This document shows positions 5,211 to 19,045 of a stretch of DNA of 64,000 nt, piece after piece (positions within the stretch are counted from its first letter, which is position 1; each line of letters begins with the position of its first letter). The DNA comes from Nitrospira sp. (GTDB lineage Bacteria; Nitrospirota; Nitrospiria; Nitrospirales; Nitrospiraceae): contig JACOEK010000002.1 of NCBI GenBank assembly GCA_024998595.1, forward strand, positions 248,001-312,000. The letters are read 5' to 3'. A program made the position numbers and the translations under genes. The notes beneath the pieces are model-generated. The model did not search any database. It had not been told where the DNA came from and saw only the letters and a list, made by a program, of their open reading frames with translations.

Positions 5211-5843
5211 CTATCGCGTGGCGAGCCACGCATGAATGTCCGCAATGTCCTGATGACTCAGCACCGCACCCCAGGCCGGCATCGGGCCTCGGCCATGGAG
5301 TACCGTTTCCCAAAACGCGCCCTCGTTTTTCAGAATCAAATTGCGCGCCAATGTGGGCCCTACGCCGCCCGCCGCCCCTTCTCCATGACAGGCCTGACAG
5401 TTATGCGCATATAACCCTGCGCCCCGCGCGGGGAGACCAGTTAGCGGACCGTCGGATGCTGCGACACTCTGATTGGGAGTCGGTTCACTCATTGCCAGTT
5501 CCTGCTCGATGGTCGGCAGGTCGTCGGGCGCACCCGGATGGTTTCGAATAATCAGATATCGCAGCACCAGCGCCGTGTCATCCTTGGACAACTCCGCGCC
5601 CCAATGCACCATCTTTTCGACGGTGACGGTCCAGCGATCTGCAGGCAACCGTTGCTGAGAGATGAGGTCGGTGGTATGGCAGACCGCACAACGGGCCATG
5701 ATCAAGGTCGCAGCTCGACGGGCCTGTGCAGGACTCAGTGACGCTCGATCCTCTTCTTGTGCAGCCGTGATGACGACCAGGCCGACGGTCGTGCACAGCA
5801 CTGTGGCGAGGATGAGGGAGGAGACCCGCTGCGGCATGCTCAT
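5211..5843 (-). CDS. Dihaem cytochrome c subunit of sulfite-dehydrogenase type
   Basis: Starting at the ATG at 5843, which overlaps the molybdoenzyme stop by 4 bases, the product has 210 aa. It has a signal peptide, a first haem site CAVCH at 52-56 in the context QQRLPADRW and KMVHWGAEL, and a second domain with CQACHGEGAAGGVGP near 145. The first context is typical of the cytochrome subunit partnered with sulfite-oxidase-family enzymes (SorB/SoxD type). The tight overlap supports a heterodimer with the upstream gene product, with electrons passing from molybdenum to the haems. The true electron acceptor is unknown. Confidence 0.88.
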   Translation of the reverse strand: MSMPQRVSSLILATVLCTTVGLVVITAAQEEDRASLSPAQARRAATLIMARCAVCHTTDLISQQRLPADRWTVTVEKMVHWGAELSKDDTALVLRYLIIRNHPGAPDDLPTIEQELAMSEPTPNQSVAASDGPLTGLPARGAGLYAHNCQACHGEGAAGGVGPTLARNLILKNEGAFWETVLHGRGPMPAWGAVLSHQDIADIHAWLATR

Positions 5844-7024
5844 GCCGCCACCGTCACGGTCAGGCGGTCCCATCCACTCCAGAGGAATCCACCTGGATTC
5901 CAAGGGCTGGTCGGCGGCTGTTGGTCCCCTCGTGTATCCGTGGCCCGACAGAGAATCGCCGTCGGTCCGACCCGACGTGAGTTCCACAGGTATTGCCATT
6001 GCCGCCAGGCATAGGGTTGTTCTTCTCCCAGCAAGCGAGCCTGCTCCCACGTCTTCCCGTCGTCACACGAGACGTCCACTTTCGCTACCGAGGATTCACC
6101 ACCCCAGGCCACCCCTCGAATGGTCACCGGACCGGTCTGCAGCGTGTCACCTTCTCCCGGCGAGGCAATCAGTGACTTCACGGCCATCTCCTCGACCGGA
6201 ACCATCACGCTCCCAGGCAATCCCGACCCCGGCTGAATCGACGTCTCCGGCATGCGGTAGGCCTGTTGCATGTAATAACCGGGCGTCTCATCGGCCCGCA
6301 CCATGATCTCAGTCAGCCATTTCATACAGGATTCCGCCATCCAACCGGGCGTGATCACGCGCAACGGTGCACCGTGAAGGAGCGGTAACGGACGGCCATT
6401 CATTTCATAGGCGAGGAGCGTATCCGGATGGAGCGCTTTGGCAACGGGGATGCTGCGGGTGAACAACGGCACGGTGGGCAGAGCCGGGCGATCTGCTCCC
6501 TGAAATTGCACATGCAGGCCCTGCGGTTTGATTCCGGCCCGCGCCAAGACATCGCGCAGACGTACGCCGGTCCATTGCGCATTGCCGACCGCGCCACGCT
6601 CCCACTGCACACCCGGCACTTTGGGGCGATGGTGGGCGCGCCCGTTGCCGCTGCATTGCAGCACGGCCGTCAGCGACACCGGTTCGAATTGTTGCAGTTC
6701 CTTGAGCGTGAGGCTCAGCCCTTCTTTGACGAGGCCTTTAACGGTCAACCGCCAGGCATCGGGCTGGACCGTCTCTGCTGGAGGCGGGCCGAAATGACTC
6801 CGGACGAAAAACCGTTCGTTGGGGGTCAACCGGGAGGTAAACTCGCGCACCGGGGTTTCGGCGTCGAACGGTCGCGTCACCCTCACCGTCAGGGGACCGA
6901 TCGCTTCCGCCGCCTCTGCCTGTTGAGCGACTTCGCGCGTCGCCCCTCCACGGCCCACGATAATGCCCGCCCCTATTCCCTTCACCAACGTCGTGAACCA
7001 TGCGCGACGAGAAACGTTCGCCAT
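5840..7024 (-). CDS. Sulfite-oxidase-family molybdopterin enzyme (SorA/SoxC-like), Tat-exported
   Basis: The 394-aa product begins at the ATG at 7024 with a twin-arginine signal (SRRAWF at 5-10), so it is exported folded. The molybdopterin domain holds C124 in LQCSGNGR, the position of the cysteine that ligates molybdenum in sulfite oxidases. The C-terminal dimerisation domain (about 285-394) includes SCDDGKTW. It lies one base after an OsmC-like gene and overlaps the dihaem cytochrome gene by 4 bases, matching two-subunit sulfite dehydrogenases. Sulfite is the likely substrate, but family members also act on other oxo compounds, so the substrate is inferred. Confidence 0.9.
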   Translation of the reverse strand: MANVSRRAWFTTLVKGIGAGIIVGRGGATREVAQQAEAAEAIGPLTVRVTRPFDAETPVREFTSRLTPNERFFVRSHFGPPPAETVQPDAWRLTVKGLVKEGLSLTLKELQQFEPVSLTAVLQCSGNGRAHHRPKVPGVQWERGAVGNAQWTGVRLRDVLARAGIKPQGLHVQFQGADRPALPTVPLFTRSIPVAKALHPDTLLAYEMNGRPLPLLHGAPLRVITPGWMAESCMKWLTEIMVRADETPGYYMQQAYRMPETSIQPGSGLPGSVMVPVEEMAVKSLIASPGEGDTLQTGPVTIRGVAWGGESSVAKVDVSCDDGKTWEQARLLGEEQPYAWRQWQYLWNSRRVGPTAILCRATDTRGDQQPPTSPWNPGGFLWSGWDRLTVTVAA

Positions 7025-14712: not shown

Positions 14713-15723
14713 TTACTGATCGTGCGCCGCATAATGCGCCATGGCGACATCAAGGGACTGCGCCGACCGGGACTCAGCCGCCGCAGCCCTCAGATGGGGC
14801 ATCACCGACGCCGAATCCCGGCCCAGCCGCGTCAGCGTCTTCATGACGCGTTCCGGACTATTCCACTCACTCCACCACACTCGCTGCATTTCCATCACCG
14901 CCGCCGCACCGGGCACGCGAGCCAGGAGATCGCGCGAAAGGCTACAGACCGGCATGCGCTCATAAATGTCGCGAAGGACTTGTGGCTCCTTCGGCGTATT
15001 GATCACCTCGCCCAGTCGTTCGAACAGGACCATCATATCCGGCAGGACCTGCCGACCCAGTCGCCATAGCGTCTCGACACGTCCTGCCATGACACACGCA
15101 TTCCACAGGGCTCCCGAAGCATACGCCAACCGCGCCATCGCGGGCTCCGATTTGTGCAAGAAGGTTGTGACAGCCCTGACCGAGTGGAGGCCGAGGCTGA
15201 TCAGTTCATGACCAGGTTTGATCCACCCATACTCTCCGTCCGGCCCATCCGGGCGCGCGGCAAGCACAACCACTTTTGCGGGCAACTTCTCCGCCGCTCG
15301 GATCGCAAACAGGATCTCCCCGAGAAACTGTTGCTCGGGAGAGACAAACTGATTGGCCGGAGAGATCAACACCGTTCCCTCCGGATCGCGCGCGCGAATA
15401 TAGGTCAAGGGCAGGAACAATCCGGCCACCGTGCCGACATTACGCGGCTGCACCAAGATCATGCCCGGATTCCGCTCGCCGATTTGCGACCAGGCCTCCT
15501 GATGACCACGCCCGACCACCACCAGCGTGCGAGCAGGGCTCGTGACGCATAACGTGCGGTCGAGGGTATGCTGGAAGACCGACCTCGTTCCGAGAAACCG
15601 GCAATAGTGGTTCGGAACCGTCCGCCCTAACCACCGCGTCACGGCCGGTTGCATCCGGACTCCGTCTCCTCCCGCGAGGACAATCGACCACCGCCGTCCG
15701 GATTGATCTTCTCTTTCGCGCAT
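14713..15723 (-). CDS. Sugar nucleotidyltransferase-like protein with altered active-site motifs
   Basis: The 336-aa product resembles mannose-1-phosphate guanylyltransferases: LAGGDGVRMQP at 16-26 stands in place of the GGxGTRLxP loop, NVGTVAGLFLPL matches the GTAPA-type stretch, SGALWNACVM matches the FLWNSGIF region and WWSEWNSP the WxDVGSW region. The usual metal-binding Asp of the PSDH motif is replaced in SPANQF at 121-126, and the Arg of the GTRL loop is shifted. It may be a catalytically weakened or retargeted homologue. The start at 15723 has AGGAGG five bases upstream. Confidence 0.75.
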   Translation of the reverse strand: MREREDQSGRRWSIVLAGGDGVRMQPAVTRWLGRTVPNHYCRFLGTRSVFQHTLDRTLCVTSPARTLVVVGRGHQEAWSQIGERNPGMILVQPRNVGTVAGLFLPLTYIRARDPEGTVLISPANQFVSPEQQFLGEILFAIRAAEKLPAKVVVLAARPDGPDGEYGWIKPGHELISLGLHSVRAVTTFLHKSEPAMARLAYASGALWNACVMAGRVETLWRLGRQVLPDMMVLFERLGEVINTPKEPQVLRDIYERMPVCSLSRDLLARVPGAAAVMEMQRVWWSEWNSPERVMKTLTRLGRDSASVMPHLRAAAAESRSAQSLDVAMAHYAAHDQ

Positions 15724-15836
15724 CATGACCTCCTACCTGATCTCCAACACGGATCTTCCGCCACCCGCATTGCGCCTAGTGCTTCATGAAGGGCTCACCG
15801 GTGGCGGCTCATGTCACTCCCGATCAATGGAATGTC

Positions 15837-15947
15837 CTACTGGGACAAGTCGAGCAGAGACAGGCCCCAGAAGATCATGACTCCAATCGCAGCCACGACC
15901 AATACCATCAGCAATGCAGCCGGCGCCAAGATAATGATCTGTTTCAT
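15837..15947 (-). CDS. 36-aa single-span membrane peptide
   Basis: An ATG at 15947, preceded by GAGGAAGG about 10 bases upstream, opens a 36-codon frame ending at a TAG at 15837. The peptide starts MKQIIILAPAALL, has one hydrophobic span of about 28 residues and ends with LLDLSQ. No family is recognised. Its interest comes from context: a palindrome identical in its arms to one in front of the nearby response regulator gene lies about 100 bases upstream. It may be a small regulatory or stress-induced membrane peptide under the two-component pair. Confidence 0.55.
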   Translation of the reverse strand: MKQIIILAPAALLMVLVVAAIGVMIFWGLSLLDLSQ

Positions 15948-16044
15948 CGCATCGTCCCTTCCTCATCTGATTCATCGGAGGAGTTACATCGATTCCCATC
16001 GCCACCTCACTCTAGCCGGACAAGATGAAGTGCCGATGAACCGG

Positions 16045-16064
16045 GCATGAAGAAATCTTCATGC
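16045..16064. promoter_or_regulatory. Palindromic operator, copy 1 (upstream of the 36-aa peptide gene)
   Basis: GCATGAAGA-AA-TCTTCATGC is a perfect 9-2-9 palindrome between the histidine kinase stop and the small peptide start. The arms CATGAAGA/TCTTCATG and the following CGG are identical to the palindrome at 18340-18357. NN-spaced palindromes of this size are typical of CusR/CopR-like OmpR-family regulators. Regulator binding is inferred. Confidence 0.65.
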
Positions 16065-16145
16065 GGAGGGAAGTCTGATGCGAGAAAGAAGACCGGAAAT
16101 CGGAGAAGGCACGAGTATGCGGAAAGCGGCGGTCCCAACGACCTG

Positions 16146-17570
16146 CTACGTCTGAATGGCGGGGAACGTCAACATGAAGACGGACCCTTTACCCACTTCG
16201 CTCTCCACGGCAATGGCGCCATGATGAGCTTCCACAATTTCTTTTACGATGGGGAGGCCGAGGCCATGCCCGCCCGAATCCCTGGCGCGAGCGGGGTCCG
16301 TCCGGTAAAAAGGCTCGAAGAGATGCGGTAGGTGTTCGCGGGCAATCCCTTGCCCGGTATCTCGAACCGCGACTTGCACCTGATTCTGCGTACCGCTCAA
16401 GCATAACGCGACAGTTCCACCCGGATCGGTATACCGCAAGGCGTTATCCAGCAAATTGATGAACACTTGCTTGAGCCGTTCGGCATCACCTAAGACCGGC
16501 TGCACCGGTTCCTCTTCCAAGACCAATGTCAGACGCCGGTCCTCCGCCACCGGAGTGAGGTCCTCGATCAATTCTTTCAGCAACGGCTGGAGCTCCAGGA
16601 CCGACAGCTCTACCGGCGGCCGCTCGCCGGCAAACCGCGCGAGCGTCAGGAGCGAACGCGTCAGGACGATGAGGCGCTGCACTTGATCGAGATTGGAGAC
16701 CAGCACGTCGCGATAGTCTTCAGCCGATCGTGAGCGCTGCAACGCGACTTCCAAGTTGCCCTGCATCACAGTCAGCGGGGTTTTCATCTCATGCGCGGCA
16801 TAATCGGTAAACCGTCGCTGGCTCTCTGAGGCCCGCTGCAACCGATCCAACATCGCGTTGAACGCTTGGGCCAGCCGCTCGAATTCTTCAAACGGGGCAT
16901 TCAGATTGGCGCGCGAACGCAGGGCTGACTCGGAAATACTCTCGGCGGTGCGACTCAACGCTTCCACCGGATCCAGCACCTTCCTGGCCAGCCACCCGCT
17001 GCCAAACCAGGATGTGGCCAGGACGGCCACCGATCCGAGCATGAGCAGACCCATGAGACTTCGGTGAGTTCTGCGAAAAAATGCCAGAGACTCTTCGGCC
17101 TGCAGCAGGTATCGTACTTCCTCCTGCTGCCGAATCGGGACAAACACCTGGCGCACCGAAACCCCCGAGTCCATCTCGAGGGTCTCATACACCACTTCGC
17201 CCCGCTTGCCTCGCGCCAGCACCGCTTCGTCTACCGACGGCCTTGGCACCACGGCGCTCCCCTGCCAGACGACCGTACCATCGAGCGCCAGGATATGGAC
17301 GGAGTGCGAGACCTCGCGGAGTTCCTTCATCCGGTCATCGGCCACCTGCGCGCCGCGCGGCACCACAATCTCATGGTCCGACCGCTTCAGAAGTTCCGGT
17401 CGTTGTTCGATCAACTCGGCGAGGGTATCCGCGAAACCGAACAATCGTCCGTCTACATATTGCTGCAGCAGACTATGAAACCCTGTGTAGACGACCACGT
17501 TGAATCCGCCCAGCAGGACCGCGATCAAGGCCACCGTATAGAGCCGGAATTGAGCGCGAAAGCTGCTCAC
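16146..17570 (-). CDS. Membrane sensor histidine kinase (HAMP-HisKA-HATPase)
   Basis: The 474-aa protein has two membrane segments (about 8-30 and 172-193) enclosing a periplasmic sensor domain of about 140 residues, then HAMP, a HisKA box with the phospho-acceptor His in AAHEMKTPLTVM near 260, and a HATPase with N-box NLLDNALRY, G1 DTGQGI and G2 GGHGLGLPIVKEI. Its architecture matches heavy-metal or envelope-stress kinases of the CusS/BaeS group. It overlaps the response regulator gene by 4 bases. The ligand is unknown. Confidence 0.93.
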   Translation of the reverse strand: MSSFRAQFRLYTVALIAVLLGGFNVVVYTGFHSLLQQYVDGRLFGFADTLAELIEQRPELLKRSDHEIVVPRGAQVADDRMKELREVSHSVHILALDGTVVWQGSAVVPRPSVDEAVLARGKRGEVVYETLEMDSGVSVRQVFVPIRQQEEVRYLLQAEESLAFFRRTHRSLMGLLMLGSVAVLATSWFGSGWLARKVLDPVEALSRTAESISESALRSRANLNAPFEEFERLAQAFNAMLDRLQRASESQRRFTDYAAHEMKTPLTVMQGNLEVALQRSRSAEDYRDVLVSNLDQVQRLIVLTRSLLTLARFAGERPPVELSVLELQPLLKELIEDLTPVAEDRRLTLVLEEEPVQPVLGDAERLKQVFINLLDNALRYTDPGGTVALCLSGTQNQVQVAVRDTGQGIAREHLPHLFEPFYRTDPARARDSGGHGLGLPIVKEIVEAHHGAIAVESEVGKGSVFMLTFPAIQT

Positions 17571-18241
17571 TCACTCGCCTCCAGCTTGTAGCCCACGCCG
17601 CGCACCGTGGCGATCAAGGGAACGGCAAAATCCTTATCGATCTTGACGCGCAACGAGCGGATGTAAACGTCCACCACATTCGTCATCGGATCATAGTTCA
17701 GCCCCCAGACGCGCTCCAGAATCGCCGTGCGGGTGAGTACGATATCGCGGTTCCGCAGAAGAAATTCCAATAGGGAGAATTCCTTGCTCGTCAGCGTAAT
17801 GTCTTTTCCTCCCCGCCACACCCGCCGGGAGGCCGGGTCCATCTCGAGATCCTTCGCCTTCAGCCGGCTGCCGACATGCGGCCCGCCTCGCCGCAGCAGC
17901 GCTCTGATGCGTGCGACTAGTTCCGTAAACGCAAACGGTTTGGTCAAATAATCATCCGCTCCGGCGTCCAAGCCGGCAACCTTATCCTCTACCGAATCGC
18001 GGGCGGTCAGCAGGAGAATCGGCGTACGGTTCCCGCGTTCACGAAGGCGCCGGCACAGCGTCAACCCGTCCACCTTGGGGAGCATCACGTCCACGATCAA
18101 CAGATCGTAACTTTCATCCACGGCCAGCATGAGCCCGGATTCGCCGTCGGCGACCATCTCCACCGTATGCCGCTCTTCTTGCAATCCCTTACGAAGGAAT
18201 TGCGCCAGGTCGGCGTCGTCTTCGATGACTAGAATTCGCAT
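17567..18241 (-). CDS. OmpR-family response regulator
   Basis: The 224-aa product starts at the ATG at 18241 (MRILVIEDD). The receiver domain has the acidic pair ED, the phospho-acceptor Asp in LLIVDVMLP near 51 and the conserved Lys in YLTKPF. The C-terminal winged helix includes SKEFSLLEFLLRN and the ending TVRGVGYKLE. It is encoded with its kinase (4-base overlap). A perfect palindrome 99 bases upstream of the start suggests autoregulation. The overall style resembles CopR/CusR regulators, but metal control is not shown. Confidence 0.95.
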   Translation of the reverse strand: MRILVIEDDADLAQFLRKGLQEERHTVEMVADGESGLMLAVDESYDLLIVDVMLPKVDGLTLCRRLRERGNRTPILLLTARDSVEDKVAGLDAGADDYLTKPFAFTELVARIRALLRRGGPHVGSRLKAKDLEMDPASRRVWRGGKDITLTSKEFSLLEFLLRNRDIVLTRTAILERVWGLNYDPMTNVVDVYIRSLRVKIDKDFAVPLIATVRGVGYKLEASE

Positions 18242-18339
18242 GCGTGCCTCGTTTCCGTCGCAACCGAACAGGCCGAGCACCGGGGCATCGTGCCGTAGAA
18301 TAGCGCCATCATATCAGGGACAGAGCAGCGGTTTCCCCC

Positions 18340-18357
18340 CATGAAGACTTCTTCATG
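18340..18357. promoter_or_regulatory. Palindromic operator, copy 2 (upstream of the response regulator) with extra half-site
   Basis: CATGAAGA-CT-TCTTCATG is a perfect palindrome with the same arms as copy 1 at 16045-16064. A further half-site TCTTCAT follows at 18361-18367, 11 bases after the right arm, about one helical turn. It is the likely autoregulatory site of the OmpR-family regulator. Confidence 0.65.
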
Positions 18358-18466
18358 CGGTCTTCATCCCTGTCTCATGTGCCGATGAGGCAGAAAAAGC
18401 GAGCGATGATGAGGGCGCGGCAGAACGGAGGGGGCAGTGCATATGGAACGGCGCAAAACCGGGGGA

Positions 18467-19003
18467 TTACCAAAACATCATGCTCGACCTTGCTATCTGC
18501 GTCACTCCCCACAACAGAAAGAGGCCATACACCGTGCCGAAAAACCAGGGAAAGCTGATCGCCCGATGCGCCCACCATTGACGATGTTGTCGAAACGCCC
18601 AGGAGGGCGCGAACGAGCGCGGCTCATTCGTCTCATCCACAATCGTTTCCCGATGCTCGCGCAGGCGATAGAGACTACTCACCGGCTTCCGGTCCAGCCA
18701 GTCGGGCATGGATTCAATGCCTCGAAGCTGCCATTCCCACAAGGCGTTCTGCCCGGAAAACCGTCCCAGTACGATCGCCATTTGCGCACTCATGAGAATC
18801 CCGATCGTGCTGAGCAACACGATCACCAGCGTGAAGGGCAAGGCCAGGGATTCACGCGACACGAGCAAGCCGATGACCGCGACAAAGATGGAATTGGCCG
18901 TCAGATAATCCGACAACATGGTGTGGTAATCGCGAACGCCGGCGGTCCAGAGCGTCAACAAATGATTGTAGTCGGACTGCATGGTGTCGTGATTCTGTGC
19001 CAT
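18467..19003 (-). CDS. Multi-span membrane protein of unknown function
   Basis: The product has 178 aa from the ATG at 19003, which has GGAG nine bases upstream; a GTG at 19033 is the alternative. It has an N-terminal helical stretch (QSDYNHLLTLW), two adjacent membrane spans near residues 45-85, a conserved-looking amphipathic middle with WEWQLRGIE, and a last span near 150-172. The shape is reminiscent of small octameric-type membrane proteins found beside stress genes, but I do not recognise a named family with confidence. It follows the trehalose-synthase-like gene on the same strand. Confidence 0.7.
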   Translation of the reverse strand: MAQNHDTMQSDYNHLLTLWTAGVRDYHTMLSDYLTANSIFVAVIGLLVSRESLALPFTLVIVLLSTIGILMSAQMAIVLGRFSGQNALWEWQLRGIESMPDWLDRKPVSSLYRLREHRETIVDETNEPRSFAPSWAFRQHRQWWAHRAISFPWFFGTVYGLFLLWGVTQIARSSMMFW

Positions 19004-19045
19004 ACGGCTATGCTCCATGGCCGGCTTGTTCACTCGGGCGACGGA

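Follow-up and report, generated by a model that had tools for sequence, protein, structure and literature searches.

PhoB binds the pho box, an arrangement of 11-bp direct repeats that lies close 5' of the −10 element and replaces the −35 element, the layout of a class II activator. For CusR of E. coli, the accessible part of PMC11195947 describes a box with ATGAC-N6-GTCAT within AAAATGACAAnnTTGTCATTTT, and the cre/blr-tag of CreB/BlrA is given in the accessible part of PMC3660660 as TTCACnnnnnnTTCAC, a direct repeat TTCAC-N6-TTCAC. Here we analyze a two-component operon of Nitrospira sp. that is flanked by two copies of one palindrome and is located in a stretch of 64,000 nucleotides (assembly GCA_024998595.1, contig JACOEK010000002.1, positions 248,001 to 312,000; hereafter called the window, with positions counted from its first letter). 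The operon comprises genes for an OmpR-family response regulator (17567–18241) and a sensor histidine kinase (16146–17570), followed by a gene for a 36-aa single-span membrane peptide (15837–15947), the proposed first target. All three lie on the minus strand, a setting that agrees with a preliminary description of the sequence. In kind, this is an autoregulated OmpR-family system with a local operator.

Comparison of the sequences makes it highly likely that each of the two palindromes belongs to an operator of the regulator whose operon they flank. The palindrome CATGAAGA-NN-TCTTCATG is present in exact form at 16046–16063 (copy 1, CATGAAGAAATCTTCATG) and at 18340–18357 (copy 2, CATGAAGACTTCTTCATG), as the preliminary description had stated. 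The genome-wide search that it had proposed returned these two exact copies only, both beside the operon, in the whole genome of 4,234,307 bases. Their starts are separated by 2294 bp and each copy lies 99 bp 5' of a start codon, copy 2 that of the regulator and copy 1 that of the peptide; in copy 1 one more base pairs on each flank, which extends it to 16045–16064. When two to three mismatches were allowed, 31 extra sites were found in the genome, giving a total of 33 per strand versus 5 for a control pattern. An additional TCTTCAT had been reported one helical turn away from copy 2, and it indeed starts 11 bp past the one within this copy. What had been missed is that copy 1, too, holds four half-sites and not two, owing to ATGAA at 16036 and 16025 on the plus strand.

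The predicted operator unit is an array in which the half-site TTCAT recurs every 11 bp, in many cases with a single inverted half-site at one end; the palindrome is the junction with this inverted copy. Both arrays in the window consist of four half-sites, three direct and one inverted. The array of the predicted peptide promoter, ATGAA-N6-TTCAT-N6-TTCAT-N6-TTCAT (16025–16062, minus strand), overlaps copy 1 and adds two further TTCAT, read on the coding strand, in steps of 11 bp; exactly 10 nt past the last TTCAT follows a putative −10 element, TAGAGT (16009–16014, minus strand). The array of the predicted regulator promoter, ATGAG-N6-ATGAA-N6-ATGAA-N6-TTCAT (18341–18378, minus strand), overlaps copy 2, extends in the mirror direction with one of its half-sites reading ATGAG, and is accompanied by a putative −10 element, TATGAT (18308–18313, minus strand). 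A consensus −35/−10 pair was not found across the region. The consensus at target promoters can be written as (ATGAA-N6-)TTCAT-N6-TTCAT-N6-TTCAT-N10-TAnnnT. Arrays with at most two mismatches occur in this genome only at the promoters of the peptide, the regulator and a family-4 glycosyltransferase-like gene; the last, with four repeats (C9:339059–339096), is located 27 kb outside the window (75 kb off). Weaker array sites are indistinguishable from chance because three mismatches yield 65 matches compared with 18 for the control.

Support for the operator reading comes, first, from syntenic conservation. Exact palindromes were detected in 13 of 61 genomes searched, all of them among the 29 of the genus. 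They occupy 17 places which, when assigned from the synteny data, correspond to 12 peptide positions and 5 regulator promoters. The array occupies the same position 5' of the peptide in 23 genomes, this one included, and the peptide gene was recognized at 19 of these aligned sites. All three TTCAT repeats are exact in 16 of them, while six have one mismatch and one has two. Half-site columns carry 1.88 bits versus 1.01 bits for spacers (a difference not reached in any of 20000 column permutations), and TAnnnT is located exactly 10 nt 3' of the array at 18 sites, with CACAnT at the remaining five. Among 13 regulator promoters compared, the mirrored array is present with at most one mismatch in 12 and with four mismatches in G003, and TATGAT is found 37–39 nt past the third repeat in 12. 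Of the sites at the peptide position, 12 of 23 contain the exact palindrome, as do 5 of the 13 regulator promoters, whereas the 11-bp TTCAT array is retained. The palindrome as the operator unit was dropped because its exact form is missing at about half of the syntenic sites that retain the direct repeats. The earlier proposal of an operator of the flanked regulator, with the peptide gene as its first target, is supported, but the palindrome does not define that operator.

Second, changes in gene order leave the site in place. In nine genomes the regulator–kinase pair is missing between the gene for an 8xMP-like protein and the peptide position, and the array is retained there in all nine; the peptide was recognized in six of them. 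Third, regulator and array are linked by their presence or absence across the genus. Close orthologs of the regulator (87–100% identity, the window genome counted) are found at the locus in 13 of 29 genomes, and relatives with 65–67% identity occur elsewhere in the genome in ten others (clade B); G003 and G020 have a second copy with 63% identity. Arrays or palindromes are present in 25 of the 29 genomes, that is, in all 23 with a regulator of this clade and in two (G008, G011) of the six without, none being found in G012, G014, G016 and G028 (Fisher test, 6.3e-4, kinship ignored).

As a docking site that is very probably that of the regulator, the array outlines a regulon; it lies just 5' of predicted promoters of envelope-type genes and, in some relatives, of a nitrification gene. 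With at most one mismatch, 72 array matches were detected in 24 of the 29 genus genomes, as opposed to one for a reversed-pattern control. By position, as assigned by us from coordinates, 22 belong to the peptide, 2 lie just upstream of the peptide, and 19 belong to a lipoprotein, 12 to the glycosyltransferase and 12 to the regulator, so that 67 of 72 are at four conserved positions; the lipoprotein count (10 genomes) includes overlapping windows of four-repeat arrays, which were counted separately. Three of the other five precede paralogs of the peptide and two have no convincing target: that of G004 lies 5' of a transporter-like frame without a −10 element at the expected place, and for that of G010 neither a −10 element nor a target was recognizable. 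An array with one to two mismatches is present at the glycosyltransferase promoter in all 14 clade-A-type genomes checked, G011 included. In the ten clade-B genomes a glycosyltransferase homolog is encoded just 5' of the 65–67% identical regulator–kinase pair, with a looser array (two to three mismatches) 5' of it in nine.

Paralogous single-span peptides, similar in length and with a WGxxLLDL-like C-terminus, have array promoters of their own (L132, 4240–4610 and 5940–6320; L102 of G007). These paralogs suggest that a small peptide family is a signature output; the loci compared (22 of 22) were obtained mainly by array or synteny and thus form a biased sample.

Beyond the genus, the search was extended to 175 genomes of the family, 46 of which have exact arrays (20 inside and 26 outside the genus; 4 of 22 genera), with no match for the control. 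From outside the genus 40 loci were retrieved, which cover 42 of the 50 array matches listed. Homologs of both the regulator (64–71% identity) and the kinase (51–57%) are encoded on one piece with the array at seven of these loci (L304, L305, L307, L308, L311, L314 and L315) from genera g23, g20 and g6. Random placement would give such a count with a probability of about 2e-12 to 1e-9 (binomial, simple assumptions). A further array locus, L306, has more distant regulators. When identical 93-mers were collapsed and orthologs kept, 74 unique exact arrays remained. TAnnnT is located at a distance of 10 nt in 52 and of 11 nt in 9 of them, compared with 0–3 at each other distance between 5 and 17 nt; the mirrored arrays listed have no TAnnnT at 10–11 nt on the opposite strand. 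An inverted ATGAA lies exactly 11 bp 5' of the first repeat in 35 and a fourth direct TTCAT in 10, with 0–5 of either at each other offset tried.

Loci with more distant regulators (the best 80 listed, 42–58% identity) served as outgroups, and they contained three array matches with at most one mismatch in two loci. In a metagenome-assembled genome of Bacillota, whose regulator is 58% identical, arrays are located both 5' of the regulator gene and 3' of the kinase gene, the latter reading ATGAA-N6-(TTCAT-N6)2-TTCAT-N10-TAGTCT. A metagenome-assembled genome of Verrucomicrobia (45% identity) has a mirrored three-plus-one array 5' of the regulator gene (L221, about 5914–5951). In the regulator tree, a single clade of 31 rows (99/96) unites clades A, B and C with six array-adjacent regulators of other genera, and the position of the Bacillota, Verrucomicrobia and L306 rows is not resolved. 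L315 was not included in the tree, its regulator match being split in two.

Taking these data and the array geometry into account, we propose that the phosphorylated regulator would bind the 11-bp-phased TTCAT half-sites as tandem dimers. The pentamer recurs head-to-tail about once per helical turn, and the inverted ATGAA at the far end stands in the same phase, which results in a perfect palindrome. At target promoters, where the array ends 10 nt 5' of the −10 element, it may stand in for a −35 element, such that the regulator would recruit σ70 RNA polymerase by class II activation. At the promoter of the regulator gene the orientation of the array is reversed and its inverted half-site lies 26–28 nt 5' of the putative −10 element, and autoregulation would therefore act from upstream. 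As for the signal of the kinase, kinship with the heavy-metal subfamily suggests a metal, whereas the target genes suggest envelope stress.

Candidate targets outside the genus include nitrification genes. In three g6 genomes (G123, G149 and G178) a stand-alone amoC gene is flanked on its 5' side by an exact array with a correctly spaced putative −10 element roughly 270–300 bp 5' of the start (L295, 3715–4551; L290, 3585–4412; L303, 2611–3468). The AmoC proteins score above the NCBIfam equivalog cut-off, and neither amoA nor amoB was recognized beside these genes when open frames were judged by eye. In genome G100 a frame similar to nitrite oxidoreductase A (L305, 3707–6710; match over 903 residues) is located directly behind the regulator–kinase pair and a four-repeat array. 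This nxrA is no more than a lead, because TAnnnT is absent at 10 or 11 nt from the array and the frame continues into a block of N. Other genes lying no more than 900 bp behind an exact array in genomes of other genera encode an alpha-type carbonic anhydrase, an RND permease, PAS kinases, NtrC-like activators, unannotated lipoproteins and a Slp-family lipoprotein (Pfam match, below the NCBIfam cut-off). It is tempting to speculate, though quite tentatively, that a family-wide regulon exists in which a CusR-like system reads the envelope or copper state and controls single-span peptides and nitrification, the latter via stand-alone amoC in three comammox-like (complete ammonia-oxidizing) genomes and nxrA in one relative.

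Several observations weigh against assigning the array to this regulator. G008 and G011 carry arrays, and no regulator of clade A or B was found in them; both assemblies are fragmented. Of the array loci retrieved from genus g6, L315 alone has such a regulator. A tblastn search of three g6 genomes, in which a further 390 kb or so of sequence flanking arrays and two nucleotidyltransferase-like genes was covered, detected none, also not near the amoC arrays. Clade-B regulators have no array directly 5' of their own gene, and in G010 no glycosyltransferase array was detected either. The second regulator copies of G003 and G020, which fall inside the same clade, have no array nearby, and the regulator promoter of G003 retains one exact direct repeat only. 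Finally, 13 of the 74 unique arrays have no TAnnnT at 10 or 11 nt.

Some of these findings would be expected if the array belonged to a different OmpR-family regulator, PhoB-like or paralogous, with the two-component operon being just one of its targets. The arrays of G008 and G011 and the retrieved g6 loci, all but one of which lack such a regulator nearby, are compatible with this explanation, as are the existence of further OmpR-family regulators in these genomes and the fact that PhoB boxes share both the 11-bp phase and the place 5' of −10. However, arrays adjoin the regulator–kinase pair in three other genera and its distant homologs in two metagenome-assembled genomes of other phyla, and no phosphate genes were seen among the named targets. 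Moreover, a paralog with 49–50% identity is encoded by four genomes without arrays (G012, G014, G016 and G028) but was not found (E ≤ 1e-40) in the array-bearing G008 and G011, and one with 41–43% identity is shared by G008, G011 and three genomes without arrays (G012, G014 and G016). We regard a different reader of the array as unlikely.

The idea that the palindromes act as RNA hairpins in transcripts (terminator, processing site or attenuator) is far less probable still. Both can be folded as RNA (z −2.49 and −3.63), yet there is no terminator-like site in the region and no Rfam match, and a terminator or RNA element was rejected on these grounds. What is conserved is the set of direct repeats and their 10-nt distance from TAnnnT rather than pairing, the inverted arm being degenerate in several relatives that keep the direct repeats. 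Chance or a dispersed repeat of the repetitive extragenic palindromic (REP) or miniature inverted-repeat transposable element (MITE) type can be dismissed: although two short matching palindromes in 64 kb are a modest basis, with at least two matches at three mismatches in 4 of 100 shuffled windows, chance is ruled out by genome-wide uniqueness and by the absence of common arms in all 300 dinucleotide shuffles (mean 1.41 perfect 8-2-8 palindromes), which bears out the earlier view that identical arms are unlikely to arise by accident, a REP or MITE element is ruled out by the one or two exact copies per genome (two here, one or two in each of the 12 relatives that have any), and the control counts of one against 72 matches at conserved promoters in the genus and of zero in 175 family genomes point the same way. 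The window itself contains four perfect 8-2-8 palindromes, of which only the 16046/18340 pair has common arms. The two others, at 5831–5848 and 5884–5901, have different arms and are 53 bp apart; they flank the 3' end of a reading frame judged by eye to encode a sulfite-oxidase-type protein, within the start of a cytochrome-like frame.

The 224-aa regulator matches Pfam Response_reg and Trans_reg_C. As is typical for the OmpR/PhoB type, it combines a receiver with a winged-helix C-terminal domain, and its predicted tandem sites recur every 11 bp, about one helical turn. The start of the kinase gene overlaps the regulator stop by 4 nt, and the 474-aa kinase has HAMP, HisKA and HATPase_c domains. 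NCBIfam TIGR01387 is the best family for the regulator (265.6 bits, below its cut-off of 279.2), as is TIGR01386 for the kinase (259.4 bits, below 292.55); the regulator does not pass the cut-offs of the CreB equivalog (160.7 versus 273 bits) or of PhoB (199.7 versus 296.2 bits). By sequence, the regulator is thus CusR/CopR-like yet under the family cut-off. No metal-efflux or copper-resistance genes are present among the ten proteins scanned between 11.3 and 19.0 kb.

Among the 22 syntenic relatives compared, tblastn recognized the 36-aa peptide in 17; in G013 it sits on another contig, and it was not recognized by tblastn in G006, G014, G015 and G025. Differences among 18 peptide sequences are distributed over codon positions as 1379/738/1754, a pattern that fits a coding gene. 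In the kinase–peptide interval of L063 (G024) an extra stretch is bordered by inverted copies of TTCATGAA beside AGTCCGGGCTA-like ends; by eye it looks like a small MITE-type insertion, and the operator is intact. On the 3' side of the peptide lies a nucleotidyltransferase-like gene (14713–15726, minus strand; Pfam NTP_transferase), which is possibly co-transcribed with the peptide gene. This order is kept in many relatives compared but not in G014, G018, G019, G022 and G023. Further along the same strand follow genes for a universal stress protein, a Rnk/GreA-type, an OsmC-type and a cytochrome c protein. The left border of synteny is formed by the 8xMP-like membrane protein (18467–19033, minus strand), which was assigned from a weak Pfam match (26.9 bits, below the cut-off of 30) and conserved gene order.

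In the literature searched, from which subscription papers were mostly absent, no paper was found for the motif in any spelling tried, and we found neither the composite operator with its regulon nor a described regulator for these Nitrospiraceae genes, and the accessible parts of PMC5596200 and PMC12342949 contain nothing that resembles the operator or the regulon. Our analysis provides a compact, testable definition of a regulon for a Nitrospiraceae two-component system. If the amoC and nxrA promoters were true targets, it would also offer a handle on how slow-growing organisms control the transcription of their nitrification enzymes.

The best-matching subfamily of the regulator is that of CusR/CopR/CzcR, the heavy-metal regulators of E. 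coli and Pseudomonas. Like CusR-type operators, as far as they are covered in the accessible part of PMC11195947, the site at 18340–18357 is a perfect palindrome beside the regulator gene in which a pentamer is followed after N6 by its inverted form (here ATGAA-N6-TTCAT), and a very restricted regulon is described there for CusR-CopR-CzcR as well. Unlike in the CusR-type arrangement, two more in-phase direct half-sites follow the inverted pair, the targets (peptide, glycosyltransferase, lipoprotein) are not metal-efflux genes and the regulator remains under the subfamily cut-off. With the CreB/BlrA tag, as printed in the accessible part of PMC3660660, the array shares the direct pentamer repeat, the N6 spacer and the 11-bp period, TTCAT being one base apart from TTCAC; that tag, however, has two repeats and no inverted half-site, as opposed to three or four repeats here. 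The predicted half-site and the targets also differ from those of PhoB. The predicted operator combines a CusR-type inverted pair with a direct-repeat array of the CreB/PhoB type, and these joined geometries would help to explain how one fold reads both an inverted pair and a tandem array.

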